Shown: in pieces, positions 21,548 through 60,271 of the stretch | How the letters are laid out: every line of letters starts with the position of its first letter | Position numbering within the stretch: the stretch's first letter is position 1 | Assembly (NCBI RefSeq): GCF_028369065.1 | Contig: NZ_JAQNDA010000003.1 | Location: 124,001-188,000, forward strand | Length of the DNA stretch: 64,000 bases | From: Marinobacter sp. SS21 | GTDB taxonomy: Bacteria > Pseudomonadota > Gammaproteobacteria > Pseudomonadales > Oleiphilaceae | Direction: 5' to 3' | Translations under genes and position numbers: made by a program | The notes under the pieces: model-generated | The model's database searches: none | The model's input: only the letters and a program-made list of their open reading frames with translations | What the model was told of the DNA's origin: nothing

Positions 21548-21644
21548 TCGGGACCGACCAGGGCGGGTCATTTGCCGGCATGGATTGCCACTGACGCCGC
21601 TGCGCTCCCGATTGCATGATTCATCTCTCAACCGCTGGTACGGG

Positions 21645-23777
21645 ATGGTGACTAATCTAAGCGTAATCAGCCATGGTTCGTCAGTCCTCGCTTTTCTGAT
21701 GCTGGCGGTTCTGATCGCCAGCAAATACCTTCGCCGTGACGTAGATCGCACGCTGTTCCTGGCCGCGCTGGTGTCCGCGCTCTGGGCCTTCTCACTGTTG
21801 GGTCAGGTGCTCTGGCAGCAGCCGAGTTTCTTTGTTCGCTACCTTCTTGAGTTGCTTCGCGACGCCGTTTGGATTGCGTTATTGCTGACATTACTCCGGG
21901 ATGCGGCCCGGACCGGGCATTTCATGGGCAAGATTCGCTCCGCGCTGAGCGCCGCAGCCATTTCACTGCTCTTGCTGCTACTGACCTCAGGCATTCTCGA
22001 ATACGTTTTCGGCATTGCCGTTCTGGATGGCAAAACCAAGGTCGTAGGCCAGATCGCCCTCGCCCTGCTAGGCCTTTCTCTGGTCGAACAGATCTGGCGC
22101 AACGCCGGTAAACTGGGACGATCCAGCCTCAAGTACATCTGCATTGGCACCGCCACACTGATGGCGTTCGACTTTTTCATGTATGCCGATGCCCTGCTGT
22201 TCGGACAGATTTCCGATCCTTTCTGGACGGCCCGCGGTCTGGTCAACGCTCTACTCGTGCCGCTGTTTGCCGTTAACGTGGTGAACACCCGCAAGCAACC
22301 CGTGGAATTCCAGCTTTCCCGCAGTGCGGTATACCACGTCGGCACTCTGACCTTCGCAGGCCTGTATCTCATTTTCCTGGCGGTGGGTGGCTACTACGTT
22401 AAGGTCATGGGAGGTGACTGGGGAGAAGCTCTGCAGGTTCTGTTCATTACCCTTTCCATGGTGTTTTTCGCCACCCTGATCACGTCTCGGCGGATTCGTG
22501 CCCGGCTGATGATTTTTATCAGCCAGAACTTTTTCGATTATAAGTACGACTATCGTGAACAGTGGCTAAAAATGACCCGAGAACTGGCCAATCTTGATGA
22601 TTCCCCGCCGCTGCCGGAACGAGTCATCCGCATACTGGCGGGTCTGGTTGACAGTAACGCCGGTGTACTTTGGCTCAAGGATGAAGACGGCAATTTCGCC
22701 CTGCAGGCGGCAACCAACCTTACCCCGCCGAAGTACACCACGATCGACGGCCAGGCCGAGTTGATCCGGTTCCTGCAAAGCCGGGAGTGGATCATCAACC
22801 TGCAGGAATACCATCACGATCCGGTACGTTACAAGCTGCTGGAAATTCCGGACGCCATCACCAAGTTCAGCGAGGGCTGGCTGATCATCCCCATGTATCT
22901 GGACAACTCGCTGTATGGTCTGGTTCTGGTGGGCAACCCCTACGCCAAGGTTGAACTCAATTGGGAAAACTTTGACCTTATCAAAGTGGTAGCCCGTCAA
23001 ACCTGCAACCTGCTGGCGCAGGCGGATGCCCAGAATCGGCTGTCCCGCGCCATGCAGTTTGAAGCCGTCAACAAAGCCTCCGCCTTCATGGCGCATGACC
23101 TCAAGACCCTGATCGCTCAAATGACGCTGCTGGCCAACAACGCCGCAAAACACCGGAATAATCCGGCGTTCATTGACGACATGATCCACACCGTTGAACA
23201 CGCCACCAAGAAGATGTCGAATCTGGTCAAGCACATTCGAAAACCGGCGGATGACACCAGCAATTCAGACTTTGTCGATCTCCACCAAACGGTTACCCAG
23301 CTGATTACACAGCACAACACCGGACGCCCGGTCCCACGCTTCATCGGCAGCTCCGACCGAGTGCTGATCCGAGCGGACGGCGAGCAGTTGCACAACGTAT
23401 TGAGCCACCTGATTCAAAACGCCCAGGATGCCACGCCGCCTGACGGCGAAATCACTCTGACCCTGAAGACCTCCCACGGCCAGGCGGTGCTGTTCATCCA
23501 GGATACCGGGTGCGGTATGACCGAGGATTTCATCAAGTTCCAACTGTTCAAACCCTTTGAAAGCACCAAGGGCTTAACGGGTATGGGAATCGGGGCTTAC
23601 CAGTCCCGCGAGTACGCGAGAAAAATTGGCGGTAACATTGATGTCACCAGTGAGCCGGGCATTGGCTCATGCTTTTCGGTTCGGCTGCCCATCGCCCAGC
23701 CACCCACCTTAAAATCTGGCGAGACCGCGTCAACGACAGATTCCCAACCCTATTCTCGAGCAAAAACAGCCGAATAA
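21645..23777 (+). CDS. prsK: XrtA/PEP-CTERM system histidine kinase PrsK
   Basis: Starting at ATG 21645 gives 710 residues; an upstream TTG at 21585 is in frame but gives a non-typical N-terminus. About eight membrane helices occupy residues 10-290. A GAF-like domain (about 320-450) follows. The dimerisation region has AHDLKTLIAQ with His484 as the likely phosphorylation site, then a HATPase domain (N box HLIQNAQDA, G boxes DTGCGM and GMGIGAY). PrsK activates PrsR to control exosortase-associated genes together with RpoN in studied bacteria. The gene lies about 110 bases before prsR. Confidence 0.88.
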   Translation: MVTNLSVISHGSSVLAFLMLAVLIASKYLRRDVDRTLFLAALVSALWAFSLLGQVLWQQPSFFVRYLLELLRDAVWIALLLTLLRDAARTGHFMGKIRSALSAAAISLLLLLLTSGILEYVFGIAVLDGKTKVVGQIALALLGLSLVEQIWRNAGKLGRSSLKYICIGTATLMAFDFFMYADALLFGQISDPFWTARGLVNALLVPLFAVNVVNTRKQPVEFQLSRSAVYHVGTLTFAGLYLIFLAVGGYYVKVMGGDWGEALQVLFITLSMVFFATLITSRRIRARLMIFISQNFFDYKYDYREQWLKMTRELANLDDSPPLPERVIRILAGLVDSNAGVLWLKDEDGNFALQAATNLTPPKYTTIDGQAELIRFLQSREWIINLQEYHHDPVRYKLLEIPDAITKFSEGWLIIPMYLDNSLYGLVLVGNPYAKVELNWENFDLIKVVARQTCNLLAQADAQNRLSRAMQFEAVNKASAFMAHDLKTLIAQMTLLANNAAKHRNNPAFIDDMIHTVEHATKKMSNLVKHIRKPADDTSNSDFVDLHQTVTQLITQHNTGRPVPRFIGSSDRVLIRADGEQLHNVLSHLIQNAQDATPPDGEITLTLKTSHGQAVLFIQDTGCGMTEDFIKFQLFKPFESTKGLTGMGIGAYQSREYARKIGGNIDVTSEPGIGSCFSVRLPIAQPPTLKSGETASTTDSQPYSRAKTAE

Positions 23778-23884
23778 ATGGCGGGTTAGAAAAATACTGG
23801 CCGTCCAGATTGCATTATGTCACTGTACGGCTAAAACTGATTCATTGAACTTCTCCACTGTGCAAAAAAGGATTTGTAGCGGTT

Positions 23885-25264
23885 GTGGGTAAACGACTTC
23901 TGATCGTTGAAGATGATCCTGGGCTTCAAAGTCAAATGCGCTGGTGTTTCAGCGATGACCTGGAAGTGACCGTCGCGGATAGCCGCGATTCCGCGCTAGC
24001 AGCACTGCGAAGGCTCGAACCGGATGTCGTCACGCTCGATCTGGGCCTCCCCCCTGACCCCGGCGGTGCTACGGAAGGCTTTGCGCTTCTTGAAGACATT
24101 CTCCGCCTTTCCCCAAACACCAAAGTTATTGTCGTCACCGGCCGGGAAGACAAAGAAAATGCCGTCAAGGCCATCGGCATGGGCGCATGCGATTTTTATC
24201 AAAAGCCCCTGGACGCCGACATTCTGACGTTTGTAGTAAATCGGGCGTTGCGCCTCGCCGAACTGGAACGAGAGAATCAGGAACTCAGCCAGCGAACCAA
24301 CGGTACCTCCATCAAGGGCATTGTCGCCTCTAGCCCGCAAATGCTCACCATCTGCCGTACCATCGAGAAGGTGGCTCCTACGGACGTAACGACTCTCATT
24401 TCCGGTGAGACCGGTACCGGCAAGGAACTGCTGGCTCGGGCACTTCACGATCTCAGTCATCGCGCCGACAAGCCCTTCGCGGCCATCAATTGCGCCGCAA
24501 TTCCGGAAACCTTGCTGGAAAGCGAACTGTTCGGGTATGAAAAAGGCGCATTCACAGGTGCCACCCAGAGCAAGAAGGGAAAAATTGAAAGCGCCAATGG
24601 TGGCACGCTGTTCCTCGATGAAATCGGGGACATGCCCATGCCTTTGCAAGCCAAGTTATTGCGCTTCCTGCAGGAACGGGTCATTGACCGGGTGGGCAGT
24701 ATTAACCCCATTCCGGTGGATGTACGGGTCGTCTGCGCAACCCACCGGGATGTACGCGGGTTGATCGATGCTGGCGATTTCCGCGAAGACCTGTATTACC
24801 GAATTAGCGAGATCACCCTCGATGTGCCCTCGCTGCGTGACCGGGACGGGGACGCCCTGGTTATTGCCCAGTCGTTGCTCAAAAGCCTTGGCAAGCAGAT
24901 GGACCGCCCGACCCTGTCTTTTTCCGATGATGCCGTGGGCGCCATCAACAGCTACGGCTGGCCGGGGAACGTGCGGGAAATGATCAATAAGGTGAAACGG
25001 GCGACGATCATGGCTGAAGGCAAGCGCGTCACCGCCTCAGACCTGGAGCTGGAGTCCGCCAGTAACCCCCTCGACAACCAGCTCAATCTGCGTCAGGTCC
25101 GGGAGGCGGCCGAACGCCAGGCCATCATGCAGGCCCTTCAGTCCAGCAATTTCAACATGGCTCAAGCGGCTCGCCTGCTCGGGGTCACCCGCCCCACTCT
25201 CTACAACCTGACCGACAAGTACAAGATCGAATCGTCTGCGGAAGCGAACAGCACCAGACACTAG
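23885..25264 (+). CDS. prsR: XrtA/PEP-CTERM response regulator PrsR (sigma-54 activator)
   Basis: The start is GTG at 23885, giving 459 residues. The receiver domain has the phosphoacceptor Asp52 in VTLDLGLPP. The AAA+ domain has Walker A GETGTGKE (174-181) and the sigma-54 contact loop GAFTGA (221-226), so it is a genuine bacterial enhancer-binding protein. The C-terminus holds a Fis-type helix-turn-helix (NMAQAARLLGVTRPTLYN). It should activate sigma-54 promoters of exopolysaccharide or PEP-CTERM genes on signal from PrsK. A 37-base gap separates it from prsT. Confidence 0.92.
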   Translation: MGKRLLIVEDDPGLQSQMRWCFSDDLEVTVADSRDSALAALRRLEPDVVTLDLGLPPDPGGATEGFALLEDILRLSPNTKVIVVTGREDKENAVKAIGMGACDFYQKPLDADILTFVVNRALRLAELERENQELSQRTNGTSIKGIVASSPQMLTICRTIEKVAPTDVTTLISGETGTGKELLARALHDLSHRADKPFAAINCAAIPETLLESELFGYEKGAFTGATQSKKGKIESANGGTLFLDEIGDMPMPLQAKLLRFLQERVIDRVGSINPIPVDVRVVCATHRDVRGLIDAGDFREDLYYRISEITLDVPSLRDRDGDALVIAQSLLKSLGKQMDRPTLSFSDDAVGAINSYGWPGNVREMINKVKRATIMAEGKRVTASDLELESASNPLDNQLNLRQVREAAERQAIMQALQSSNFNMAQAARLLGVTRPTLYNLTDKYKIESSAEANSTRH

Positions 25265-25301
25265 GCGCTCGGCATTAGGCAACACAGGGATACAGTCAGC
25301 C

Positions 25302-28004
25302 ATGAAAAGAAGGAATGCGTCCGTAAAGCTCCCCCCACTGCTACGGGCCACGATGATGTCCGCCATCCTCGCGCTCGGCCTGGCCGGTTGCGACGACAAC
25401 AACATGAGCCAGGAAGAAATCCAGTATATCGGCCATCTGGATCAGGCCCGCTTTTTCCAGCGCCAGGGTGAGCTCAAGGCAAGCACCCTGGAAGCGCGCA
25501 GCGCCATTGAGCTACAACCCTCAGAGTCGGACCCCTACTTCATCATCGTACGCAATCTGATCACCGCCGGCGATGCGCTCAACGCCGAGAGACAGCTCAA
25601 CCAACTCAGGGAAGTGATGCCTGACGGGTTCTTTACCGAACAGGTGGCCAACCGTTCCGCACTACTCCTGGCCGAATCCCAACTCATGCAGCGCGAGTTC
25701 GATGCAGCACTGAACGCACTCGAACAGGTTCAGGAACCCGATAAGGCCCTGCAACTCGAGGTCGAGCTGATGCGGGCCAAGATCCAGGAGGCGAGCGGCC
25801 GTCTCGCCGACGCCCTACAGTCCTATGAAGCCGCGCGATCCCTGGACAACGAAGCAGTTTACCCGCTGATTGGACTGTCACGCATTGCATTCGCAAACGG
25901 AGATCATGTTCGCGTCACCGAGCTCATTGCCGAGGCCGAGCAGAAAGATTCCGAAGACCCAGAGCTTTGGCTTTGGAAGGCTCAGGTTAGCGAAGCTAAC
26001 CGCCAATGGCAGAAATCAGAGGACGCCTATATCAAGGCACTGGAAGACATCGGCCAGTACGATGTCATGACCTATCGGAAGTATGAAACCATGTCCGCGC
26101 TGGTCCGTGTACTGCGTGAACAGGGTAAAACCTCTGAAGCCTTCGTCTATGAAGAGATGCTTGCCAAGTCGGCGCCGGGCACCATAAAGAGCAACATGGC
26201 TGCCGCCAGGGACGCCTTTACCTCCGGTGAACTTGAAACCGCCGCACGATACCTGGAGGAAATTCTCGAGCAAACCCCCACCCATGAACAAAGCACGCTC
26301 ATGCTCGGCATGATTCGGTTTCGCCAGGGCCGAGTTGAAGAGGCCGAGGCACTACTCGCCCCGCTTGCCGAATACACCGACTCGACGGCAGTCAACAAAC
26401 TGTTGGCTGCCACCAAGCTGGAAATGCGCGATCCCGAGGGCGCCCGTGCCCTACTTGAAGATCTTGAGAGCGATCAGTCCGATCCCGACATTCTCGCTCT
26501 TGTTGGCATCGCATCACTGGCCAGTGGCGACATTGCAGCCGGCGAGGATTTTATCGAGAAGGCCCTGGAACTGAATCCTGACAACCACAACCTGCGACTG
26601 CGGTATGCGAGCTACCTGGCCCAACGAGGCCAACCGGATAAGGCGCTGGACCTCACCCGCCAGGCGCTGGAAGCACGGCCAGATCTGGACGCCGCCAAGC
26701 TGTTAATGATCCGCACTTACGTGCAGATTGGCGATAACGCCGCCGCCACCGAATCGGCCACTGCCTGGGTCAAGGCCCAGCCGGACAGCATTCCCGCACT
26801 CCTGTCCCGCGGGCAACTGGCCTTGGAAAGCGGTGATGAGGTGGACGCCGGCCGTTACTTTGAGCAGGCTGCCAAAGCGGCACCGGATCAGGCCGATCCG
26901 CTGGTTGCCTTGGGCAACCTGGCACGTCATCAAGGTCGGTCAGAAGCTGCCCAGGACTATTATCGCCGCGCCCTGACCCTCGCCCCGAACAATCGTGCAG
27001 CCCTTAGGGGCGCTGCCACCGCCTTTGAACGAGATCAGGCCATTGCGCTGATGGAAAGCATTCTCAATGAGCAACCGGATGCCATCGGCCCGAAACTGGT
27101 TCTGTTGGAAACAGCGCTGGAAGACGCTGACGATGTCAAGGCCGAGCAGTTGACGGCAGAGTTAATGGCACGTGACAGCGAGCACCAGCCAGCTCCGGCG
27201 GCGTCCATGGTGGCAACCATCTACAGCGGCGTTGGAGAGCATTTGATGCAAGAGGAGAAGTTCGATCAGGCCCGCGACGTGCTAAACCGAGGCCGTATCC
27301 TCTTCCCCAACAATCTGGGCATTGGCCTTCAGTCCGCTGTTCTGGCATTCCGCTCGTCCGATCCTGCTGAAGCCCGGGCTATTTTGCAGGACGTGAAGCG
27401 TACCCATCCTGAATCGCCCAAGCCGTATATCGCTGAGGCGAGCTATCTGGAATCCCAACAGCAATACCGAGAAGCGTCAGAGTTATTCAAGATCGCTTTA
27501 TCAAAAGGCCGTGAGCCAGGGGTTGCGCTCGCCTACGCACGATCCCTACAACTTTCCGGCCAACCGGGTCGAGCCATCGAAGTACTGGAATCCGCTGTCG
27601 AGGTCAATCCAGCTCATCCCAATATTCAGCTGACCCTGGCCTTGCTTTATCAAGGCAACAATCAGCAGGCTCAGGCGCAAGCCGCCTATGAAGCCGTCAT
27701 AGATGTTGCTCCAACCAATGCCCTAGCCCTTAATAATTTGGCATGGCTTTACTTCGAGGCCGGCGACGAGCGGGCGCTCGCCCTGGCGAAACGGGCGTAC
27801 GAAGCGCAACCCGAAAGCGCGGCAATTGCAGACACCTATGGTTGGATTCTATTTAAAGCCGGAAACCAAATCGAAAGTGTCCCCATCCTGGAGAAAGCGC
27901 ACACCTTGCAGCCCGACGCTGACGAGATCGCCTTTCATCTGGCAGAGGCCTATAAAGCCACCGGACAGGAATCAAAGGCCAAGCAAGTACTTCAGAACAT
28001 GTAA
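25302..28004 (+). CDS. prsT: XrtA/PEP-CTERM system TPR lipoprotein PrsT
   Basis: The product has 900 residues. An N-terminal signal with lipobox LAGC gives lipidated Cys30. The remainder is an array of about twenty TPR units (for example AVNPAHPNIQLTLALLYQGN and NALALNNLAWLYFEAGDE). The length and position next to prsKR identify PrsT, the large TPR lipoprotein always found with exosortase A loci. It probably sits in the outer or inner membrane periplasmic face and scaffolds polymer export or protein sorting; direct function is not established. Confidence 0.9.
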   Translation: MKRRNASVKLPPLLRATMMSAILALGLAGCDDNNMSQEEIQYIGHLDQARFFQRQGELKASTLEARSAIELQPSESDPYFIIVRNLITAGDALNAERQLNQLREVMPDGFFTEQVANRSALLLAESQLMQREFDAALNALEQVQEPDKALQLEVELMRAKIQEASGRLADALQSYEAARSLDNEAVYPLIGLSRIAFANGDHVRVTELIAEAEQKDSEDPELWLWKAQVSEANRQWQKSEDAYIKALEDIGQYDVMTYRKYETMSALVRVLREQGKTSEAFVYEEMLAKSAPGTIKSNMAAARDAFTSGELETAARYLEEILEQTPTHEQSTLMLGMIRFRQGRVEEAEALLAPLAEYTDSTAVNKLLAATKLEMRDPEGARALLEDLESDQSDPDILALVGIASLASGDIAAGEDFIEKALELNPDNHNLRLRYASYLAQRGQPDKALDLTRQALEARPDLDAAKLLMIRTYVQIGDNAAATESATAWVKAQPDSIPALLSRGQLALESGDEVDAGRYFEQAAKAAPDQADPLVALGNLARHQGRSEAAQDYYRRALTLAPNNRAALRGAATAFERDQAIALMESILNEQPDAIGPKLVLLETALEDADDVKAEQLTAELMARDSEHQPAPAASMVATIYSGVGEHLMQEEKFDQARDVLNRGRILFPNNLGIGLQSAVLAFRSSDPAEARAILQDVKRTHPESPKPYIAEASYLESQQQYREASELFKIALSKGREPGVALAYARSLQLSGQPGRAIEVLESAVEVNPAHPNIQLTLALLYQGNNQQAQAQAAYEAVIDVAPTNALALNNLAWLYFEAGDERALALAKRAYEAQPESAAIADTYGWILFKAGNQIESVPILEKAHTLQPDADEIAFHLAEAYKATGQESKAKQVLQNM

Positions 28005-30413: not shown

Positions 30414-31955
30414 ATGGAAAAAGGATTTCCCGTGATTCGAAGCACCAATACGCCAGCCCGATACGCCGTGGTATCGCTCACCATCATTTTTTTCGTTTTC
30501 GCCCTGTACCCGGAATGGCGCGACTTCACACTGCTTTGGACCGACTCCATTATCTATTCCCACGGCTTTCTGGTAACCGCCAGTATCGGCTATTTGCTGT
30601 TGCGCAAGCGGGAAGCCATACGAACACTCACCGTCGCTCCCTCAGTACCCGCGTTGTGTTTGTTGACGGCCTTAACCGGTGTGTTTTTGATTGTACGATT
30701 CGCCGATATTCAGGTATTGAGGCTACTCCTGGCTCCCATGCTCATTCTGGCTTGGGGAACGGCCATATTTGGTTTCGCCTTTACACGGATCGTTGCCCCC
30801 CCGCTCCTGCTGATCTTATTCGCTACCCCAATCTGGGGCGACATCTCACCGTTACTCCAGAAAATCACTGTCTGGGTCAACCAAGGACTGTTGGATGTCT
30901 TCGATATTCCCGCCGTCATTCAGGACTTTTACATTTTGATTCCCGATGGAACCTTTCATGTGGCCGATGGTTGCAGTGGGGTTCGTTACCTTATGATCGG
31001 GCTTTTTCTGGCATCTCTTTCAGGCCTGTTGTTCTACAACAATGTCTACCGCTCGGTGTTGCTGTTCGTAATCGCGGGTTTCCTGTCGATGTTGGCAAAC
31101 TGGATCAGAGTCTTCGGCATCATCTACGCAGGCCACCATTCGCAAATGCAGACTTCGTTGGTGACCGATCATGAAGTCTTTGGCTGGATTATTTTTGTCT
31201 GTGTGATGCTACTGCCCTTCTTCCTCATATCGAGAAAACTGGAGCCCCCGCTCCGGCAAACGGTTGCCGTCTGCGCTCAACCATCGCAAAATGCCATCAG
31301 CAACAAAGCTGCCGCCTGGCTAGTGCTTCCCACCTTGCTGATTGCGCTAATCCCTGCGGTGACAATCGTTCAGTCCAACCCCCAATCGCCGGAGCAGCAG
31401 AACTGGTCCCCGGAACTTCCAGATTCGTCCAGTGCCTGGCGCGGCCCCATCAGGTTCGCCGAGTTTTGGGAGCCCAGCTTTAAGAATCCAGATATTGATT
31501 TAAGCGGTATATACGTTTCGCCTGAGCTGAATCGCATCCAGCTTCAAGTCATCGGCTACCGTAACCAAACCCAAGGGAAGGAACTGATTTACTATGAGAA
31601 CCGGCTGTATGACAACGGCGATTGGCGCGAAGCCTCCAGCACGGTGCAATCGGCCCAGCTCGCGGGCTCAGACATGAGGCCCAGGTTCAGGGAAACGGTA
31701 CTCGAAGATCGCCGCGGGGATGACACGCTGGTGGTTTGGTCCTGGTACGAATTGGGAAGCTATCGGGATATTTCGGAATTCAATGTGAAAATCATGGGCG
31801 GTTTAAAGAAGCTTCTCGGCGATGGCCGCGCCGTAATGTGGGCATTAGCCTCTGAATGCTCACCCCAACAGCAGCCTGGGTGCCAGCAGCCGCGAGACAA
31901 CCTTCGCCAGTTTCTGGAGACTGTACCACTAGGCTCCGCCTCAGACGGGAACTGA
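30414..31955 (+). CDS. xrtA: Exosortase A with EpsI domain
   Basis: The product has 513 residues. The first 290 or so form the multi-pass exosortase domain with the transpeptidase-like triad visible as Cys187 (ADGCSGVRYL), Arg232 (NWIRVFG) and His253 (DHEVFGW). The C-terminal 200 residues form the periplasmic EpsI domain, the usual fusion in XrtA. Exosortases cleave PEP-CTERM signals and pass the protein on, by analogy with sortases. No PEP-CTERM substrate is encoded in this window. It ends 24 bases from a convergent aminotransferase gene. Confidence 0.95.
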   Translation: MEKGFPVIRSTNTPARYAVVSLTIIFFVFALYPEWRDFTLLWTDSIIYSHGFLVTASIGYLLLRKREAIRTLTVAPSVPALCLLTALTGVFLIVRFADIQVLRLLLAPMLILAWGTAIFGFAFTRIVAPPLLLILFATPIWGDISPLLQKITVWVNQGLLDVFDIPAVIQDFYILIPDGTFHVADGCSGVRYLMIGLFLASLSGLLFYNNVYRSVLLFVIAGFLSMLANWIRVFGIIYAGHHSQMQTSLVTDHEVFGWIIFVCVMLLPFFLISRKLEPPLRQTVAVCAQPSQNAISNKAAAWLVLPTLLIALIPAVTIVQSNPQSPEQQNWSPELPDSSSAWRGPIRFAEFWEPSFKNPDIDLSGIYVSPELNRIQLQVIGYRNQTQGKELIYYENRLYDNGDWREASSTVQSAQLAGSDMRPRFRETVLEDRRGDDTLVVWSWYELGSYRDISEFNVKIMGGLKKLLGDGRAVMWALASECSPQQQPGCQQPRDNLRQFLETVPLGSASDGN

Positions 31956-51060: not shown

Positions 51061-52073
51061 CGTAATCTGGCAGCCGACCTGCGTTTCTTTCGATCCTTCA
51101 GCAGGTATAGAAATTTAAAGACCGGGCTCCTGACGAGCATGATCGATGCAAGCGGCTCCTGACGGTCAGCAATTCGGCATTTGTAGTCTTCGTTCTTGCC
51201 CGTGCCGACCAACAGATCGAAAACCGCTATATCGTCCCGATGGAAGCATTCCTCGATGTTATAACCTATGTGGAGAGTGCCCAGCGCCAGCTTCTTATTG
51301 AAGTTCTCCTCAAAACCGGAGTGGATGTTGTACATACGACCGTTGAAAGCCACATTGTAGAGGGCCGACAGAGCACGACCGTTACTTTTTAGAATTGAAA
51401 GATTGGGCACCCCACCTTCCGCCACGACCCTCTCCAGAAAACGCCGCTGAAAGGCCATACCCTCTCCACCACCAAAACTGGGCTTACCCCACCGCCGCAT
51501 GATCAGATCGTCGAGTAACTTGAAGAATTCGTCCGTTCGATTTGGCCAGAACTCACACAATTCAACTTCTCCAAGGCTTTCAAACACTTTCCTGCGATTA
51601 AATAATCGAAGGCGAGTGTTCGCGCCTAGTTTGGATAAATAGGCCTCGAAATCACCGGAGGTATTTACTGAATAAGCCGTGTCTTCGCTGATCACCCGGT
51701 GCAACCAACGATGACGTTTAGCCATGTCAGTAATCTGGCGGAATTCAATTGAATCCTTCCGGATATCGGTCAGGGCAGCCTCCGACCAGCGGTTTTGCAC
51801 AAGTGCCTGCTCCAAAACGGTCCTGGCATCCGTGCCGTTATGGGAACATGGCATCAACGTGTTGTATTCGGTTCTGGGAGTGTTAATACGCCGATTACTG
51901 GTACCAACAAACTGAAGGGACCTGACCGGCAGAAAACCACGAAATCGGTAGCTGTCTTCATACAGCCCGGAAATCTGGCCGTCACTCGCCGACAGCAATG
52001 TGAAGCCGCGGGTATGCCCCCAAGTCTCCCACCAGCTGTCCTGCCAGGCTTTCGTTTGGAACAGACTCATCAA
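51057..52073 (-). CDS. GNAT-family acyltransferase (CelD/BcsL type)
   Basis: The product has 338 residues with a GNAT_6-type domain: YLSKLGANTRLRLFNRRKVFE, then the segments SALYNVAFNGRMYNIHSGFEENFNKKL and LGTLHIGYNIEECFHRD. Members are found in exopolysaccharide loci and transfer acyl or aminoacyl groups. It overlaps FemAB downstream and the GT4 gene by 4 bases each, so it belongs to the minus-strand XrtA-core transcript or its extension. Substrate unknown. Confidence 0.8.
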   Translation of the reverse strand: MMSLFQTKAWQDSWWETWGHTRGFTLLSASDGQISGLYEDSYRFRGFLPVRSLQFVGTSNRRINTPRTEYNTLMPCSHNGTDARTVLEQALVQNRWSEAALTDIRKDSIEFRQITDMAKRHRWLHRVISEDTAYSVNTSGDFEAYLSKLGANTRLRLFNRRKVFESLGEVELCEFWPNRTDEFFKLLDDLIMRRWGKPSFGGGEGMAFQRRFLERVVAEGGVPNLSILKSNGRALSALYNVAFNGRMYNIHSGFEENFNKKLALGTLHIGYNIEECFHRDDIAVFDLLVGTGKNEDYKCRIADRQEPLASIMLVRSPVFKFLYLLKDRKKRRSAARLR

Positions 52074-53404
52074 GGCAAGCTCCGCACAATTGCCGGCCCA
52101 AGTATCTTGGTGACAAAGACCGGCAATCGTTTCCAGGCCGCAATCAGAATCCTGAATTTGGGGTTATCCGGGTTTAGACCTGGCAATGATCCGCCAGCCT
52201 CCAGGCAGTAATCCCAGTACAGTGGGATCGGTTGCGCGCCCCACTGTTTTTTAAAGCGATAGGTACCCGAATGCTCGGTGCATCGACCAAAATCGAAAAT
52301 TTCATAGCGATGATGAATGGCAATCTTGAGGATCGACCAATACATGAGCATATTGACGCCGGTATGGTTAACCTCACGCAACGTTGAAGCCCAGGGAATT
52401 TCCAGCCGCGATCCAAAACCCATGATAAAGGCCGCTCCTACCACCTTTCCACGCAGTCTGACGGCAACAATATTCGCGGTTTCAGGAAAGCATACCAGCA
52501 GGTTACGAAAAAACTCAGGGCTATAAACAGGGGTTCCCAGATCCCGCATATTGCGCGCAAACACCCGGTAAAACTCCTCCAGTAGCTCTTCTCGACCGAC
52601 CGCTATATCGGGAGTTTCCTTTTCAGCACGTCGAATCTGGGCGCGTACCTTAGGGCTGAAACTGCGCCATAAGACAGTTTCCGACTCTGGTAGTCCTAGC
52701 CAGAACGATACCTTGTCCACGCGCTTCGGCAACTCAAGGCCGAGGGTCTGGGCATGCCGTAACTCCACATGATCTGCTCCCAGGTCTCGTTGCCAGGCCC
52801 GAGCCTTTTGCAGCAGCAAACCGGCAGCTTCGATGTTATCTGCCAGAATCCCGCCATAGTTAAAGTAAGGAACCGATACAACGTAATTGCCAAATAACCA
52901 GCTCTTCAGTTGAATCAGCGGCAGCACACCCATAATTTGCCCAGAACGGTTGCTGGCATAGAGATACCTCATGTTATGACCAAAGGTCATTGCAATGGCA
53001 TCTCGTAACGCCAGACTATGGGCAAAACTCGCTCCAGGGTGGCAAGAGACATACTCAGACCACGCGTCCTCCGCATCGGGCTGCAACTCATGGACTTTCA
53101 GTCCGCCAGCTGGGACTGGTCGGTCAAGCACCGCCGCTGGTGCAAGTGACGGTTCTTGAACCGTTACCGACGTCGGTCTGGTGTTCAGCTGACTTTTAAT
53201 CGCCTTTTGCAGAGCTTTGGCTTCACAGGATATCGCTTTTAACTGCTCAATCAGCTCGCTGGGTAACTTACCCTCTGCCCGAGCAGCGCCAATCTGTCGG
53301 CTTAGCTGACCTTTGGTTTCTTGCAGGTCTGCGAGCCTTCGTTTCCGTGCCAGAAGATCCGCCGATTCGGTATGACAGCTCATACGCAGATCCTCAAACA
53401 GCAA
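52070..53404 (-). CDS. FemAB family XrtA/PEP-CTERM system-associated protein
   Basis: The product has 444 residues, about 90 longer than usual. Residues 10-75 are a Lys/Arg/Glu/Leu-rich coiled coil (LLARKRRLADLQETKGQL onward), followed by a Pro/Ala linker and then the FemAB/GNAT domain, including FAHSLALRDAIAMTFGH, YFNYGGILADN and FDFGRCTEHSGTYRFKKQWGA, the family's hallmark stretch. It probably acylates or aminoacylates an export component or sugar. The coiled-coil extension may mediate a complex. It overlaps the deacetylase gene by 11 bases. Confidence 0.87.
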   Translation of the reverse strand: MLFEDLRMSCHTESADLLARKRRLADLQETKGQLSRQIGAARAEGKLPSELIEQLKAISCEAKALQKAIKSQLNTRPTSVTVQEPSLAPAAVLDRPVPAGGLKVHELQPDAEDAWSEYVSCHPGASFAHSLALRDAIAMTFGHNMRYLYASNRSGQIMGVLPLIQLKSWLFGNYVVSVPYFNYGGILADNIEAAGLLLQKARAWQRDLGADHVELRHAQTLGLELPKRVDKVSFWLGLPESETVLWRSFSPKVRAQIRRAEKETPDIAVGREELLEEFYRVFARNMRDLGTPVYSPEFFRNLLVCFPETANIVAVRLRGKVVGAAFIMGFGSRLEIPWASTLREVNHTGVNMLMYWSILKIAIHHRYEIFDFGRCTEHSGTYRFKKQWGAQPIPLYWDYCLEAGGSLPGLNPDNPKFRILIAAWKRLPVFVTKILGPAIVRSLP

Positions 53405-54260
53405 CTGGCTGAGAGGCGACGCCGGCCTGGGCGAACACCTCGCTGACCGTACCGAACTGGAACCTCTCCAATAATTTTTCCAGCCTGCCCTTGCACCGAT
53501 GCAGGTTGTTGTAATGCCTGAACCGGGACAATGGCTTGACCTTCAGTCGAGGCTGACCAGGATCAATCTCCCATGGGTGCAGATAGAAGATAAACGGTTG
53601 GCCAGAGCGGTTAATTTTCTGCAGCCCCCATTGTGTCAGCCAGTAAGGAAACAGCCGGAAATAACCGCCGCCGGCGATGGGCAAGCGATAGCTTCCAATA
53701 GGGCAAGTGGATAGCGGAAACTCCTTAAGAATCCCACCCCCGGGCGCTTGGAGAATATAGGGCTCGTGCGGCGTCCCAGGCATCCCGTAGCGGTCGTGAT
53801 GAACAGGAAAAATGGAGGAATCCCACAAGAAACCTTCTTCACATAAGATATCCAGTGCCCATCGGGATTGTGCGGTAATGGAATAGCTAGCTGCTCGATA
53901 CCCGGTTATGGCAGCGCCCAGAGAATCCTCGAGGATCCGTTTGGACTTGCGCGTTTCCGCCCGGAAGACCTCGGGCGTTTGGGTGTAGATCAATTGATGG
54001 CTGTAACCATGACTGGCCACCTCATGGCCCGCCTCGCTGATTCTCCGGACCAGGCCCGGAGACCTTTCCGCAACCCAGCCCAGCACAAAGAATGTGGCGT
54101 GAATGCCCCGATCTGCAAACAGTTGCAACAGTACATCCGTGTTCTTCTCGACTCGATACTCCATTGAGGTCCAGTCATTCCGTTTGACCGCTTCAGCCAA
54201 CGCAGCTACCTGAAAATAATCCTCAACATCAATGGTCAAGGCGTTGGTAATCTCATCCAT
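53394..54260 (-). CDS. XrtA-associated polysaccharide deacetylase
   Basis: The product has 288 residues. NALTIDVEDYFQVAAL at the N-terminus (Asp and His metal ligands follow in HEVASHGYSHQLIY) and the C-terminal DUF3473-like segment ending FVFYLHPWEIDPGQPRLK-type are specific to the PEP-CTERM-locus deacetylase family. There is no signal peptide. Its role is probably N-deacetylation of a precursor sugar. It starts 45 bases from the stop of the outer-membrane barrel gene, where other loci have an XrtA-associated ATPase gene. Confidence 0.9.
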   Translation of the reverse strand: MDEITNALTIDVEDYFQVAALAEAVKRNDWTSMEYRVEKNTDVLLQLFADRGIHATFFVLGWVAERSPGLVRRISEAGHEVASHGYSHQLIYTQTPEVFRAETRKSKRILEDSLGAAITGYRAASYSITAQSRWALDILCEEGFLWDSSIFPVHHDRYGMPGTPHEPYILQAPGGGILKEFPLSTCPIGSYRLPIAGGGYFRLFPYWLTQWGLQKINRSGQPFIFYLHPWEIDPGQPRLKVKPLSRFRHYNNLHRCKGRLEKLLERFQFGTVSEVFAQAGVASQPVAV

Positions 54261-54305: not shown

Positions 54306-55595
54306 TCACAGGAACCGGTAGTTCAAACCTAATTCAAACCAATTGTCTTCATATTCAGTCGTCGGAACGTTACTGTCTCGACTGGATCGACCTACACGAC
54401 CCACCAGATCCAACTTTCGCGTTGCTTGGTAGGACAGCCCCACATGGACATTGACGAGGGTATCGTCACGGTCTTCAGGCTGGAAAGAACGTCTTTCTAC
54501 CCGAGCGCCCAGTAACCCATCCAGCCGCGAAACGACCGGCAGACGATATCGGAAATCAGCACCGCGGCCGTCTTCCTCTTCGGCAGACTGCAGGTACTCC
54601 GTCCGGTTAGAGAACAAGGCCAGCTCCATATTCGAGCGGTCGCTATAAACCGTTCGCATACCCGCCCGAATGGTGGTGACTTCCACCCCTACCTGCTCTC
54701 GTAAATTGATGGTGATGTCACCAATTCGAACATCAATATCCGATGTCTGATCCGTCAGTTCGTGGGTGGCAGACAGGAACGCCACCGTCGACGCCGAAAC
54801 ATCCCGCTCAAGTGTAAAATTGCCCACAATTGCATCGCTTTCGAGAACCTGGTCCATGAATCGGCTCTCATATTCGGTAAAGCCCAAGGCGCCTTGGATC
54901 TGCGTTGCGCTCCAGGCCTTACGGAATGTCAAGCTCGCGGTATCCCGGTCAATTTCTTCCCCGGTCTCCAGTTCCGCCCGATCCGCCAGGAACCGAACCC
55001 CGAGATCGGTGGACGGACTAAAGCTTCGAGTAACCCAGGCCGAGCCCAGCAGGCGTTCGCTATCGATCTCGCTGTTTTCTTCGAATTCGGTGTTCTCATA
55101 TTGGGCGGAAATTTCCAGCCGATCGACCTGGCTTAAGCGCACGGTGAGCACCGGTCCGGTCCGGAAGATATTCTTGCGGGTGCGGTTATCCGGCGTGTCG
55201 ACATTGCGGCCGTCCTGTACGACGTCCCGCAAGTAATCCGAGAGTTCCCAGCGAATATTGTCGGTAACCGAGCAGTCTCCCAAGAAATCAAGTTCGGAGT
55301 ACAGCTCTGGCTCAAACGTATCGTCAGACCAGACGCCATAGCCAAATTCCGCGCGAGTCCTGGCATTGCAGGCACCTGGATCCGTTTGGTGCGCGAAGCT
55401 TAAGGTGGTGCGAGTCTCCACATCGTCCTGGGCACCGTCAGGCACCCTGGTGACGTTATCGCTGTAACGACTGGTAACCCCGCCCGACAGCGTTGGTGGC
55501 TCCGCCACCGCCACCAGTGGAATCGTCATCGATAGAACCAGGACGAGCCACTTGCCATAACCGGAAACAACGCGACATTCGCTGGCCTTAACCAT
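54306..55595 (-). CDS. PEP-CTERM/XrtA system outer-membrane beta-barrel protein
   Basis: The preferred start is ATG 55593-55595, set by a GGAG ribosome site ten bases upstream and by overlap with the kinase-like gene by 8 bases; the frame opens earlier but lacks such a site. This gives 429 residues. A signal peptide ends at AVAEPPT. The mature protein is a series of amphipathic beta strands with polar turns, ending ELGLNYRFL, an outer-membrane C-terminal signature. It matches the XrtA-associated outer-membrane family and probably forms the polysaccharide export pore with the Wza-like protein. Confidence 0.85.
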   Translation of the reverse strand: MVKASECRVVSGYGKWLVLVLSMTIPLVAVAEPPTLSGGVTSRYSDNVTRVPDGAQDDVETRTTLSFAHQTDPGACNARTRAEFGYGVWSDDTFEPELYSELDFLGDCSVTDNIRWELSDYLRDVVQDGRNVDTPDNRTRKNIFRTGPVLTVRLSQVDRLEISAQYENTEFEENSEIDSERLLGSAWVTRSFSPSTDLGVRFLADRAELETGEEIDRDTASLTFRKAWSATQIQGALGFTEYESRFMDQVLESDAIVGNFTLERDVSASTVAFLSATHELTDQTSDIDVRIGDITINLREQVGVEVTTIRAGMRTVYSDRSNMELALFSNRTEYLQSAEEEDGRGADFRYRLPVVSRLDGLLGARVERRSFQPEDRDDTLVNVHVGLSYQATRKLDLVGRVGRSSRDSNVPTTEYEDNWFELGLNYRFL

Positions 55596-56493
55596 TGATG
55601 ACCACTCCAACAAACTTTTCCTGATTAAAGGCCGTGGCCGCCTGTTCAATGCTGGCAGGGGTAAGCCGGCCATGGGGAATGACCAGCAGAGTGTAATCAC
55701 AGAGTTCCGAAAGAATACGTGCATCCGGTGACTCGGCAATCGACGCCGTATCCAGAATAATGAATCGATCCGGGTAACGACGGCGGACCGCCTGCAGGAA
55801 TTGCTTCATCCGAAACGAAGTGAAGAATTCACCAGGCGTTTCCCGCCGACTACCGGCAGGGATCAGCCTCAATCGGGTGATGCCGGTCGGATACAGTATC
55901 CTGGCGATGTCGTAATCCGGCTCATCGAGGAAATCGGTAAGACCGAACTCTGGCTTGATATCAAGCGTGGTATGGAGCGTCGGTTGCCTCAAGTTACAGT
56001 CAATGATCAGTGCGGTTTTTTGATGATCGAAGGCAAACGCTGCCGCCAGGTTCAATGCGACAAAGGATGCGCCGGATCCTTCGCTGGCTCCGGTAACCAC
56101 CAACGTAAAATTGTTGCCCGCCGAGTGCTCCACCAGTTTCGTTCTCAGATTCCGAAAGTGATTAACGAGCCGGCGATTATCAGAGTCGGGATAGATGATT
56201 CGACGTTCTTCAAGATCGTCATTCGTAAAGGTGCGAGGCTCCTTCATTCGCACAATCTGACGACTGTTGATATAGCGATCAACGGCCCTATGGCCGAACT
56301 CCAACGAACTCGGTACCAGCAAACGGGAATCGTCCCATTCTGAATTATTCCGGCCGCCCACACCCGGCTCCCGGCGTGCTTCGTCGCCCTGCTCCGCGAA
56401 ATTCTCAAGCTCGTCGGAAGAGCGATTCTCTGGTTCGCCTAGTTCATCTTTTCCAGACATATCATTGTCCCGCCTGTTTCTGGAGTCATTCAT
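55588..56493 (-). CDS. XrtA-associated tyrosine-kinase-like protein, degenerate P-loop
   Basis: The start is ATG 56491-56493, immediately following an AGGAGG-type site and sharing one base with the stop of the Wzz gene; the product has 301 residues. It has the bacterial tyrosine kinase (BY-kinase) fold, but the Walker A loop reads GASEGSGAS (135-143), with Ala142 where the ATP-binding Lys is expected. Walker A' reads IIDCNLR, with Asn in place of the second Asp. The C-terminus ends GVVING without the usual tyrosine cluster. It is probably catalytically dead and may serve as a structural partner of the Wzz protein. Genomic codon GCA confirms Ala. Confidence 0.85.
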   Translation of the reverse strand: MNDSRNRRDNDMSGKDELGEPENRSSDELENFAEQGDEARREPGVGGRNNSEWDDSRLLVPSSLEFGHRAVDRYINSRQIVRMKEPRTFTNDDLEERRIIYPDSDNRRLVNHFRNLRTKLVEHSAGNNFTLVVTGASEGSGASFVALNLAAAFAFDHQKTALIIDCNLRQPTLHTTLDIKPEFGLTDFLDEPDYDIARILYPTGITRLRLIPAGSRRETPGEFFTSFRMKQFLQAVRRRYPDRFIILDTASIAESPDARILSELCDYTLLVIPHGRLTPASIEQAATAFNQEKFVGVVING

Positions 56494-58019
56494 CAATACA
56501 CCTCCAGAAATGCCGTAATGGCAGCTGCAATGTAGATAACTGCCACTGCAATCACGCAAATGCCCACAATGGTTGTGGTACGACGATCCTTCCGTTTATC
56601 GAAGGGGGTACGGATATCGGGAATCGTTTCAAGCACCAGGAGTTCCATTTCCTCCTCCAACTGCTCTCGTGACCGAATTCGTGGATCCAATTGAAGCACA
56701 CCTGCCGCGGCACCAAGCGGCGCCAACAGACCCAGCAGAAGCCCCGCGATGGCAAACATGGGAAACTTTACCCCCGCGGGACTTAATGGGTATTGGGCAG
56801 CCTCGTTAATGCGATAGCTCAAGCCTTGTCCCTCAATATCCAGGTGCATGGACACTCTGGCTTTCTCACGACGTTTTAGAAGGTCATCGTAGATTTGCCG
56901 GTTAACTTCCATGTCCCTGGTGAGATCGGAGTACTGTGCCTTATTCTCCTGAATCCGCTCCATACGCTGGGTTTGGTCGACCATCAAGGCACGAATGGAT
57001 CGAATACGGGTTTCCGCTGTCTCGATATCCGCTCGAGTGGTTGCCAGGGCAGAACGAATTTGTTGATAAACAGGATTGGCAATGGTTTCACCGTCCAGCG
57101 TACGAGAAGCCTGATCGGGGTCCTCCGCCGCCCGCTGCTGCTGCCGGCGCAGTTCTGAAAGCTGCTCCCGCAAGATGACAATATCCGGATAGGTATCGTG
57201 ATACTGTAACCGCAGTTCGTCCAACTGCTCTTCCAGCGCCCGGATTCTTTCCTGATAAATATCCCTGGCCCTGCCCTGTAGGATCGTCGGACGAACCTTG
57301 CTCAATTCGATTTCCAGAGTCTGTGCACGGGTAACCAGCTCCGCCTTATCGAGCTGGGCAAGCTCAAGCTGGCTGCGAAGGTTCGCCATACGGGCATTGG
57401 CTTCCGCTTCGGTACCATCTACATTCTCCGACAGAAACTGTTTGAGCCGCTCTTCCACCTCCGCAATCTGTTGCTCGTAGCTCCTAACCTGCTTGTCTAT
57501 AAACTCATACGCGCCCCGACTTTCCGCGCGCTTGCGCTCATTGTTCTCTTCGATAAAGGCCTGCCCCAACCGTTGTGCAACCGTAAACGCGATCAGCGGG
57601 GACGGGGAGCTGTAGCCAATACTGAAGTAGCTGTCCCCCCGGGTAGCCACACTCAAGCGGGCTCGCAACATCCCGATTCGCCCTTCGAGTTCCTCAGGCG
57701 TGAGCATGGTGGCGCTTTCACCGTAGATTCGCGGGTCCGTCGCTACGGCTTCCAGCACCTTTCGACTCCAGAGCAACTCCTGGGCCGCAGATGCACGCTC
57801 ATTGATCTGAGTGGTGACCGCACTGCCTTCCATTAGTGGTCTGATGATGTTTTGGTCATCGACAAAAATGATCACCTCGGAACTGTACTTGTAGGGCCAG
57901 ACAAAGCCCGCAGCGAGAACCACGAAACTGACGCCGGTAAAGAGAAAGAACGCCAGCCATTTCCTCGCCCGGATCTCACGAATAATTTCAGCTGGGAACT
58001 GGGATAACGGAAGTGCCAT
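56493..58019 (-). CDS. XrtA system polysaccharide chain-length determinant (Wzz-like)
   Basis: The product has 508 residues. An N-terminal membrane helix (about 21-41) and a C-terminal pair near 410-430 and 485-505 bracket a long periplasmic coiled-coil region rich in Glu, Arg and Gln, the layout of Wzz/BY-kinase activator proteins. It sets polymer length and may contact the kinase-like protein encoded one base downstream. It matches the XrtA-associated EpsF/Wzz family. Confidence 0.9.
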   Translation of the reverse strand: MALPLSQFPAEIIREIRARKWLAFFLFTGVSFVVLAAGFVWPYKYSSEVIIFVDDQNIIRPLMEGSAVTTQINERASAAQELLWSRKVLEAVATDPRIYGESATMLTPEELEGRIGMLRARLSVATRGDSYFSIGYSSPSPLIAFTVAQRLGQAFIEENNERKRAESRGAYEFIDKQVRSYEQQIAEVEERLKQFLSENVDGTEAEANARMANLRSQLELAQLDKAELVTRAQTLEIELSKVRPTILQGRARDIYQERIRALEEQLDELRLQYHDTYPDIVILREQLSELRRQQQRAAEDPDQASRTLDGETIANPVYQQIRSALATTRADIETAETRIRSIRALMVDQTQRMERIQENKAQYSDLTRDMEVNRQIYDDLLKRREKARVSMHLDIEGQGLSYRINEAAQYPLSPAGVKFPMFAIAGLLLGLLAPLGAAAGVLQLDPRIRSREQLEEEMELLVLETIPDIRTPFDKRKDRRTTTIVGICVIAVAVIYIAAAITAFLEVY

Positions 58020-58072: not shown

Positions 58073-58717
58073 CTAGAAACCGCGTTCTGGTACGGTCAAA
58101 ATGTCGCCAGCCCTGAGCGAATAGTTGGTGCGTATATCGCCGTTATTGAGGATATCGCCCAGCTTGACCGGAATGGCCACGACTTCATTTTCCACGACCC
58201 GATACAGCATCGAGTTGTTGGGCGCGGCAAATGGGTTAATACCACCGGCACTAAGCACCATATCCAGCACCGTCATGCCAGAGCGATGCGGCATGGACAT
58301 CGGTTGCTCCACGGCGCCGGTAACCCTGACCCGATCCGTAAATTCATGGCTGTTCATGGAGGTCACGACAACGCTGACCTGGGGCTCGCGGATATATTCA
58401 TCCAGGATGGCTTCAATATCATCAGCAAGCCGTTCCGGCGTCTTACCGCTGGCCTTGACATCTCCAACCAAAGGCACCGAGATCATCCCGTCCGGACGCA
58501 CCGGTACCGTTATACTCAAGTCAGGGTTGCGCCAAACGGACACGGAAATCTCATCCGTGGCTCCAATGATGTATTCGCCGGTATTCTCGGCGGCGCCCAA
58601 ATTAAGGGCCTGAGCAATTTTGTCCGGAGGAGAGGCAATGGGGCCCACACAACCTGTAAGCGCTACAACCGAAACGAAAGCCACTATACGAAAGAAAAAC
58701 CGAATCACCCCTGACAT
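58073..58717 (-). CDS. XrtA/PEP-CTERM exopolysaccharide export lipoprotein (Wza-like)
   Basis: The product has 214 residues. Lipobox LTGC gives Cys23. A polysaccharide export domain follows (YIIGATDEISVSVWRNPDL, then VPLVGDVKASGKTPERL), and a SLBB-like segment (RVTGAVEQPMSMPHRSGM). It is an outer-membrane lipoprotein for exopolysaccharide export. It lies 53 bases upstream of the Wzz gene and 62 bases downstream of the sugar transferase gene. Confidence 0.92.
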   Translation of the reverse strand: MSGVIRFFFRIVAFVSVVALTGCVGPIASPPDKIAQALNLGAAENTGEYIIGATDEISVSVWRNPDLSITVPVRPDGMISVPLVGDVKASGKTPERLADDIEAILDEYIREPQVSVVVTSMNSHEFTDRVRVTGAVEQPMSMPHRSGMTVLDMVLSAGGINPFAAPNNSMLYRVVENEVVAIPVKLGDILNNGDIRTNYSLRAGDILTVPERGF

Positions 58718-58779: not shown

Positions 58780-60192
58780 TTAGCGCGATCCTTTTTTAAA
58801 CAGCACCACCTCCACGGTCTGTATGATGATCAGAAGATCCAATAGCAAACTTTGATTCTTTATGTAGTAAAGGTCGTAGCGAAGTTTCTCGCGGTTATCC
58901 TCTTCGCTATCCGCATAGGCAAAGCAAAGTTGCGCCCAACCAGTAATTCCGGGCTTAACCCGGTGCCGTTCGTTATAAAACGGTATGGAATCAGAGAGCT
59001 TTTCAACAAACACCGGGCGCTCAGGCCTGGGACCAACAAAGGCCATGGTGCCGTTAAGGACATTGATCACTTGGGGAATCTCGTCAATTCTCACTTTGCG
59101 GATAAACGCACCCACCTGGGTGACGCGGGCGTCGTTTTTCTGTGCCCACACCGCGCCGTTCTTTTCCGCATCCGTCCTCATGGAACGAAATTTGTACACC
59201 TTGAACACGCGACCGTCTAATCCAACCCGTTCCTGGCTATAAAATATGGGGGCCTTAAGCCCCTCCTCGATTTTGATCGCCAGTGCAGTGAGCACCATCA
59301 GTGGAAGTGCCAGCACCAGCAGCGTTGCCGAGGCAATAATGTCCAGGGCGCGCTTACCCAAACCGGACACTGTGGACACGGTGAAGCCATCGGTAAATAC
59401 CAGCCAGCCCCGTGTAATCATCTCCAATGCGACCTTGCGGGATTCCCGCTCATAAAAGGCCACCCCGTCGACAATGCCGATACCTTCCATTTTGCATTCC
59501 AGAAGATCCTCCATCGGTAACCCTTTGCGCCGATCATCCACGGCCACCACAATTTCGCTGACCGGATGCGTGCGTACATGCTGGTAGATGCTGTAGGGCA
59601 AACGGAGCAGCTGATCCTCCGGGATAACGGTGTGCTCTCCCGGCAAAGGCACGAATCCCGCCAGCGAAAATCCCTTGCGGTTAAGTGGCGTCGTGAGGTC
59701 ATCCAACAGCTGCCGGGCCCGCTCTCCCGACCCAAGCACCAACACCTTGCGCTTAAAAGTATCCTTGCCCATTACTGCGTAAAATATCGTCCGTACAATA
59801 CCCAACAACAGCACGGCCAATACTGCCGACGTTGTCATCACGCTGCCTCCCCCCAGATACCAGAGCCAATCACCGGCAATCAGGTACGCCATCCCGGAGA
59901 GAGGGAGACTGATGATCAACGCCATGATGGTTCGCAGCATCATGCCTGACATGCCATCCTCCAACCGCGATTGGTGCACGCCAGTGGCGATCATCGCCAG
60001 CAAACTCATGACCCCGAAAACAATGGCAGAAGGTAAAACATAGGACCAGTTCGCCAGGAAGAAGGACATCTCCCCGAAGTAGCGGAAAAAGACGACAAAA
60101 CTGAGCGAGAAAATCAGGACGAGTAAATCAATCAACCCAAGCAGGAGGAACGGCAGGTGCAAGTAGTGTCTGAACAATCTGACGTGGGCCAC
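58780..60192 (-). CDS. XrtA-associated sugar-phosphate transferase (EpsE-like)
   Basis: The start is GTG 60190-60192, six bases after AAGGAG, giving 470 residues; a TTG at 60270 would add an untypical N-terminus. Five membrane helices occupy residues 10-165, then a nucleotide-binding-like domain, then the polyprenyl glycosylphosphotransferase domain with SQERVGLDGRVFKVYKFRSM and DEIPQVINVLNGTMAFVGPRPERP, the conserved family motifs. It starts repeat-unit synthesis by linking sugar-1-phosphate to undecaprenyl phosphate. First gene of the XrtA export core. Confidence 0.92.
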   Translation of the reverse strand: MAHVRLFRHYLHLPFLLLGLIDLLVLIFSLSFVVFFRYFGEMSFFLANWSYVLPSAIVFGVMSLLAMIATGVHQSRLEDGMSGMMLRTIMALIISLPLSGMAYLIAGDWLWYLGGGSVMTTSAVLAVLLLGIVRTIFYAVMGKDTFKRKVLVLGSGERARQLLDDLTTPLNRKGFSLAGFVPLPGEHTVIPEDQLLRLPYSIYQHVRTHPVSEIVVAVDDRRKGLPMEDLLECKMEGIGIVDGVAFYERESRKVALEMITRGWLVFTDGFTVSTVSGLGKRALDIIASATLLVLALPLMVLTALAIKIEEGLKAPIFYSQERVGLDGRVFKVYKFRSMRTDAEKNGAVWAQKNDARVTQVGAFIRKVRIDEIPQVINVLNGTMAFVGPRPERPVFVEKLSDSIPFYNERHRVKPGITGWAQLCFAYADSEEDNREKLRYDLYYIKNQSLLLDLLIIIQTVEVVLFKKGSR

Positions 60193-60259
60193 GCCAACTC
60201 CTTGTGGTTCGCACACAAATGAACCCCGCGCTTCCAATGCTTCGGGATAGAAGGTGAAC

Positions 60260-60271
60260 TTTTGTAACAAA
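60260..60271. promoter_or_regulatory. TTTTGTAACAAA near-palindrome upstream of the sugar transferase gene
   Basis: The 12-mer TTTTGTAACAAA, containing TTTGTNACAAA, occurs here and again at 8561-8572. Both copies sit a short distance upstream of a minus-strand start. It could be an operator; evidence is only two copies. Confidence 0.3.

Follow-up and report, generated by a model that had tools for sequence, protein, structure and literature searches.

A lysine-less BY-kinase-like protein at the XrtA locus of Marinobacter: a predicted pseudokinase lineage inherited together with one clade of PCP proteins

The XrtA locus in the window (the whole 64,000-nt stretch of Marinobacter DNA analysed here) encodes a BY-kinase-like protein of 301 aa which, by the hallmarks of its sequence, is a predicted BY pseudokinase: catalytic residues and the C-terminal Tyr tail are missing. 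We estimate at about 0.7 the probability that this protein is paired with the Wzz-type PCP encoded upstream and aids formation of the PCP octamer without Tyr phosphorylation. Of most use among the new points are the apparently single old origin of such Lys-less proteins, their fixed pairing with one PCP clade, a half-kept pocket and a misleading database name.

The XrtA locus and its kinase-like gene

The gene is located on the minus strand (55588–56493; ATG at 56493, stop at 55588) and was assigned by a fold match and by TIGR03018 (XrtA-associated tyrosine autokinase), a family whose name asserts kinase activity. TIGR03018 gave the best NCBIfam match of the protein, covering residues 99–300 and the whole 207-position model, with a score (217.1 bits) below the curated cut-off (230.65 bits). 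Lys-less relatives from large genomes with the window's family code (L010–L013) score above this cut-off, as does L105 (249.6 bits).

Several genes of the XrtA system lie around it on the same strand. Directly upstream is the gene of the Wzz/PCP partner, the XrtA chain length determinant (508 aa, 56493–58019; TIGR03007, 393.1 bits against a cut-off of 278.85), intact as had been predicted; its stop codon overlaps the ATG of the kinase-like gene by one base. Genes for a polysaccharide export (OPX) protein (58073–58717; TIGR03027, 207.5 bits, cut-off 180) and a polyprenyl glycosylphosphotransferase (58780–60270; TIGR03013, 573 bits, over cut-off) follow. On the other side are genes for an outer-membrane beta-barrel protein (54306–55595; PF10082, 29.7 bits, over cut-off; TIGR03016 below cut-off), a polysaccharide deacetylase (53394–54260; TIGR03006, 402.5 bits, over cut-off) and a FemAB-like protein (52070–53404; TIGR03019, 376.7 bits, over cut-off). 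The plus strand carries exosortase XrtA (30414–31955; TIGR03109, 227.3 bits, cut-off 208), the sole TIGR02602 match in the window genome, and three genes (21585–28004) for the PrsK sensor kinase, the PEP-CTERM-box response regulator and PrsT (TIGR02916, TIGR02915 and TIGR02917, all over cut-off).

The same arrangement recurs elsewhere: in all 82 Lys-less loci that we examined, a PCP gene directly precedes the Lys-less gene, and of the 53 loci longer than 7 kb, 50 also contain the export gene. The window PCP is a PCP-2 without kinase domain that ends just past its last membrane helix (about one residue after it, by a crude hydropathy rule). We considered, and rejected, the idea that the PCP lost a CapA-like activating C-terminal tail along with the kinase Lys; in 117 Lys-less and 59 Lys loci, compared by a simple and crude hydropathy rule, the stretch past the last membrane helix was mostly short in both groups. 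In one large-genome relative (L104:8584-10112) the PCP is split in two ORFs beside the pseudokinase gene, perhaps by a frameshift.

Diagnostic residues and fold

The P-loop region of the protein (residues 134–144, TGASEGSGASF; 56062–56094, minus strand) has Ala142 (codon GCA, 56070–56068) at the position of the Walker A Lys of active BY-kinases, while Ser143 is kept. In phmmer alignments Ala142 falls on the P-loop Lys of BceF (6z0p, ptpgigksf) and, in two Wzc sequences (3la6 and 9xgv), on a Met; this Met was taken as a substitution of Lys because the fold matches include further Wzc entries with K540M in their titles. The original prediction of an Ala in place of the ATP-binding Lys is thus upheld, and the alignment it had named as counter-evidence, with this Ala away from the P-loop Lys, did not appear. 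In Walker A′ (IDCNLR) the first Asp is kept as Asp165 and the second is replaced by Asn167 (codon AAC, 55993–55995, minus strand). The Walker B Asp is also present (Asp248; codon GAT, 55750–55752, minus strand). The Asn had been predicted too; the two kept Asp residues had gone unmentioned. The chain ends in VVING, one residue past N300, with no C-terminal Tyr cluster, again as predicted, and this end of the gene (55588–55595, minus strand) makes an 8-base overlap with the ATG of the next gene.

The full-length model has pLDDT 58.9, the domain-only model pLDDT 71.0 and pTM 0.76. Compared with Wzc, Etk, CapB, VpsO and BceF, the domain model gave Z 17.2–19.8 and rmsd 2.9–3.5 over 186–197 residues; the next fold was that of SRP GTPases (Z 12.4). 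Only Foldseek's own matches were re-aligned here, so that absence of other folds is uninformative. Models of such modest confidence predict a BY-kinase fold. Active BY-kinases keep the Lys, the second Asp and the Tyr tail; it is their Lys-mutant, unphosphorylated form that the window protein resembles.

Survey of kinase domains

From regions chosen by hand among the matches listed, neither at random nor exhaustively (counts are not natural frequencies), we collected 265 distinct kinase domains, 133 without the P-loop Lys and 132 with it. One domain, L198, was counted as non-Lys: its Lys lies in an insertion, the rest of the P-loop is eroded, and Asn replaces the Walker B Asp. At least two Tyr residues after the last strand were found in none of the 133 Lys-less domains vs 111 of the 132 domains with Lys. 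There is no Tyr past the last strand in 132 of the Lys-less domains and a single one in the remaining domain; a contig end truncates two of them (L074 and L205), and the other 131 reach their natural end without a Tyr tail.

The second Walker A′ Asp is Asn in 120/133 Lys-less domains vs 11/132 with Lys; for the Walker B Asp the corresponding counts are 16/133 and 0/132. At least one of the three Asp residues is lost in 131 of the 133, mostly the second (Asn167), and in group B, a second locus type described below, the Walker B Asp. All three of Ser/Thr143, D165 and D248 are kept in 113 of the 133. Among rows outside group B, Ser/Thr143 is kept in 67/67, D165 and D248 in 66/67 each, and Asn stands at the second Asp in 65/67; the Glu of the ExxRxxR motif is replaced by Asn or Asp in 61/67. 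Group B rows lost the Ser/Thr in 14/15 and the Walker B Asp in 15/15.

The idea that the Asp is neutralised only where Lys is lost was rejected. It had agreed with a first sample (Asn at the second Asp in none of 81 Lys rows), yet the wider sample contains 11 Lys domains (of 132) with that Asn, 9 of which lack a Tyr tail; on the tree, Asn and tail loss can be compared in four independent pairs on starred branches, few for a test. The Lys is kept in a third set of BY-kinase-like proteins, whose C-terminus is short and has few Tyr residues or none (L089, L097, L098, L204, L207, L331, L334, L341, L344, L345, L355 and L356); in several of these the second Walker A′ Asp is Asn.

Most relatives found are in records titled Marinobacter (65–81% identity in the best segment). 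Each of the 59 distinct group A and B domains taken from genomes with the window genus code (29) or from Marinobacter-titled records (30) lacks the Lys, so that neither chance nor a sequencing error explains its absence from the window gene. Marinobacter orthologues at the window-type locus have Ala, Ser, Thr or Cys at the Lys position and, except for L074 (contig end), stop where the window protein stops. Group B, found in other Marinobacter, has an eroded P-loop, Asn in Walker B and a C-terminus FQE or similar. Some Marinobacter (G139 and G080) have both group A and group B loci (L095, L096, L108, L109). Proteins with Lys found in the window genus are Wzc and two copies at other loci. Within the window's family code, f1, five genomes (L014–L018) have Lys-bearing, Tyr-tailed proteins instead, and a few more genomes have Lys-bearing proteins at other loci (L089, L097, L098, L002). 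Marinobacter-like copies were also seen on contigs titled Methylococcales, Spongiibacteraceae and Pelagibacterium (L040, L044 and L078), which are possibly misbinned; the L044 and L078 copies are nearly alike.

Origin of the Lys-less lineage

Kinase trees were built with the P-loop and Asp columns removed. In a 139-row tree a single branch (SH-aLRT 99) separated the 77 Lys-less rows from the rest. The 215-row tree gave a similar split with support 99, in which every Lys-less row but L321 (85 of 86) fell on one side; these 86 are drawn from the 133 Lys-less domains, of which the remaining 47 are close copies, mainly from Marinobacter. A reduced, more careful tree of 83 of the 215 rows, part chosen and part random, with long rows dropped (L002 and L329 with Lys, L206 and L226 without), joined 42 Lys-less rows in one clade (100/100) and set L321 apart. 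A degenerate clade, which the original prediction had suggested looking for, does therefore exist. With L321 excluded, the Lys-less set numbers 132 domains, spread over 28 family codes of the window's class and 47 genus codes, together with 32 domains from titled records. Since the P-loop Lys is the rule among other BY-kinases, we infer loss rather than gain on these unrooted trees.

L321 (G766:C6:137860-141501) has GAGVTT and lacks a Tyr tail, and its second Asp is replaced by Asn; it lies outside the main clade and groups with Lys-bearing proteins with modest support. We interpret it as a separate, second loss of the Lys.

The PCP partners have a matching history. In a FastTree PCP tree, 84 partners of Lys-less and 117 partners of Lys proteins are on two sides of one branch with support 96, and the Lys/Lys-less label changes once; the similarity filter for this tree was passed by 84 of 85 Lys-less partners (all but that of L321) and 117 of 123 Lys partners. 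A search for the partner ORF of L223 found none. The trees indicate that the Lys-less clade is one old lineage, co-inherited with one PCP clade, in which Lys and Tyr tail were apparently lost once. The suggestion that the window gene itself may have ‘become’ structural does not suit a loss that is old and fixed over the whole clade.

Alternative explanations

Missing residues, taken alone, could point to a recently decaying pseudogene or an assembly error. However, the orthologues inspected share the loss, and the gene overlaps the adjoining one at either end, in the manner of a coupled operon. Among 35 Marinobacter orthologues the median dN/dS (0.056, resting on near-saturated dS, finite in 51 of 200 sampled pairs) and the median pN/pS (0.157) are the lowest of five locus genes (FemAB was represented by 13 sequences only). 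Clade-specific near-fixed residues include N128, D156, C166, G204, R207, D266, P273 and K293. Such values are the mark of purifying selection on a gene whose function is evidently kept; decay or error is hardly credible, and the Lys-less protein is neither an artefact nor unique to the window strain.

Some eukaryotic pseudokinases regulate active kinases in trans. A comparable action on an active BY-kinase would have a candidate target in the window genome, which has a canonical Wzc (L002, with GVGKTF and a Tyr-rich end); TIGR01007 was matched over cut-off (E 1e-30) in 43 of 160 family-code genomes, including this one. The threshold misses some Lys-type XrtA kinases (G154 and G023 have one, unmatched). 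We picked 18 genomes with Lys-less genes from the 117 of 160 without a TIGR01007 match, and none of them had a BY-kinase over the TIGR01007 cut-off among matches listed down to E 1e-10. The best match was the Lys-less protein itself in 14 genomes and a KGGVGKT protein in four; these four carry the group B type, and one such protein scores as MinD. In the other 14, the next-best matches inspected, at least one per genome, were KGGVGKT proteins of MinD/ParA type. The authors of the work on the pseudokinase EcpK, in the excerpts of PMC12004946, likewise argue against dependence on an active BY-kinase in Myxococcus xanthus. A partner of this kind seems not to be needed, and regulation in trans is an unlikely role. 

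WNK kinases have their Lys supplied from elsewhere, and by analogy the Lys-less protein could still be an active kinase or ATPase. The Mg-site residues are mostly kept, and positions 98, 107, 237, 259 and 293 are basic more often in Lys-less proteins than in those with Lys. All these gained residues are outside the P-loop, in which no compensating Lys or Arg was found among the Lys-less proteins; lack of a Tyr tail and the prevalence of Asn at the second Asp also count against activity, which we consider quite improbable. A more specific form of the preferred explanation deserves greater weight, though we would put it somewhat short of even odds: the pocket may bind Mg-nucleotide or another ligand without phosphotransfer, and the ligand would set the oligomeric state of the PCP. 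The near-invariance of Ser/Thr143, D165 and D248 outside group B argues for such binding, as does an Asn at the second Asp that is conserved, not random. According to excerpts of PMC3795738, the CapA1B2(K55M) octamer contained ADP-Mg that was never added, and there are PDB entries titled Wzc-K540M with MgADP. The P-loop without compensating Lys or Arg argues against ligand binding, and so does group B: nested in the clade, it has eroded the pocket yet retains the gene and its neighbourhood, so nucleotide binding is not needed in every branch.

These observations also qualify the original prediction. The term pseudokinase agrees with the hallmarks in the sequence, but loss of Lys alone does not equal loss of nucleotide binding. 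A ‘purely structural’ protein is unsupported, because a Lys mutant has been found to contain ADP-Mg and the Mg-site residues are kept in most Lys-less domains. Mg-nucleotide in the Lys-free pocket is plausible in view of these retained residues.

Discussion

Known BY pseudokinases, EcpK of M. xanthus and HfsB of Caulobacter crescentus, have been proposed to be phosphorylation-independent scaffolds (PMC12004946, in excerpt). Like them, the window protein is a stand-alone kinase-fold protein with a kinase-less PCP-2, and catalytic residues and Tyr tail are missing. By the description in the same excerpts, all three Walker motifs are absent from EcpK, whose C-terminus is a basic helix; in the Lys-less clade Ser/Thr143, D165 and D248 are mostly retained, and group A proteins stop at the last strand. 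Compared again by description, the gene studied here differs from the EcpK and HfsB systems in belonging to an XrtA locus and in having a PCP without a long C-terminal extension; EpsV and HfsA were modelled to dock via C-terminal tails of 25–27 residues (PMC12004946, in excerpt). For BY pseudokinases in other bacteria this source cites Cuthbertson et al., who may list some of the Lys-less proteins. We recognised no published description of an XrtA-linked Lys-less clade, nor any binding or kinase assay of its members, in the literature searched, which covers few subscription papers.

Mutants of active BY-kinases bear on what such a protein could do. In the excerpted text of PMC7485978, VpsO K551A lost phosphorylation, oligomerised more and hyper-produced polysaccharide; VpsO mutants in ExxRxxR or in the tail Tyr residues made less polysaccharide, and truncation of the tail gave a colony form like that of the Tyr mutants. 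Wzc K540M gives octamers (PMC11986026, in excerpt).

Under the explanation that we prefer, a stand-alone cytoplasmic subunit of kinase fold would pair with the PCP encoded upstream and help its octamer to form. The Lys-less lineage resembles a naturally occurring version of the published Lys-mutant state, which is why we suggest a phosphorylation-independent clamp on the Wzz/PCP octamer of the XrtA locus; because VpsO K551A combines high oligomerisation with hyper-production, the clamped state would be permanently assembled and export-on. Output would then be set by transcription (PrsK and PEP-CTERM-box regulator genes are in the window) and not by a phospho-cycle. Contact with the PCP, oligomeric state and absence of kinase activity are what we infer from sequences. 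Other contacts would have to hold the oligomer, because the Tyr tail is absent and the Glu of ExxRxxR is mostly replaced in the clade. Counted against this explanation are the joint retention of Ser/Thr143, D165 and D248 in 113 of the 133 Lys-less domains, which goes beyond the needs of a plain scaffold, the docking-tail precedent of EpsV and HfsA vs the very short tail of the window PCP, and the canonical Wzc in the window genome.

A broader scenario, which we offer tentatively and hold to be about a one-in-three proposition, is that one ancient event removed the phospho-switch and the PCP/BY-kinase pair became fixed across the 28 family codes. The pocket would have been re-purposed: in most members Mg-nucleotide or another ligand would act permanently as clamp or sensor, holding the export octamer together.

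Polysaccharide export of the Wzc type is currently modelled as dependent on phosphorylation cycles of the kinase part. The name ‘tyrosine autokinase’, used by NCBI and in databases, is misleading for the Lys-less proteins. Their lineage amounts to a large natural experiment, co-polymerase pairs without Lys and Tyr tail under strong selection. In most of these defined pairs the pocket is half-kept, in others (group B) it is eroded, and they may serve as a probe of roles of the kinase fold beyond phosphorylation.
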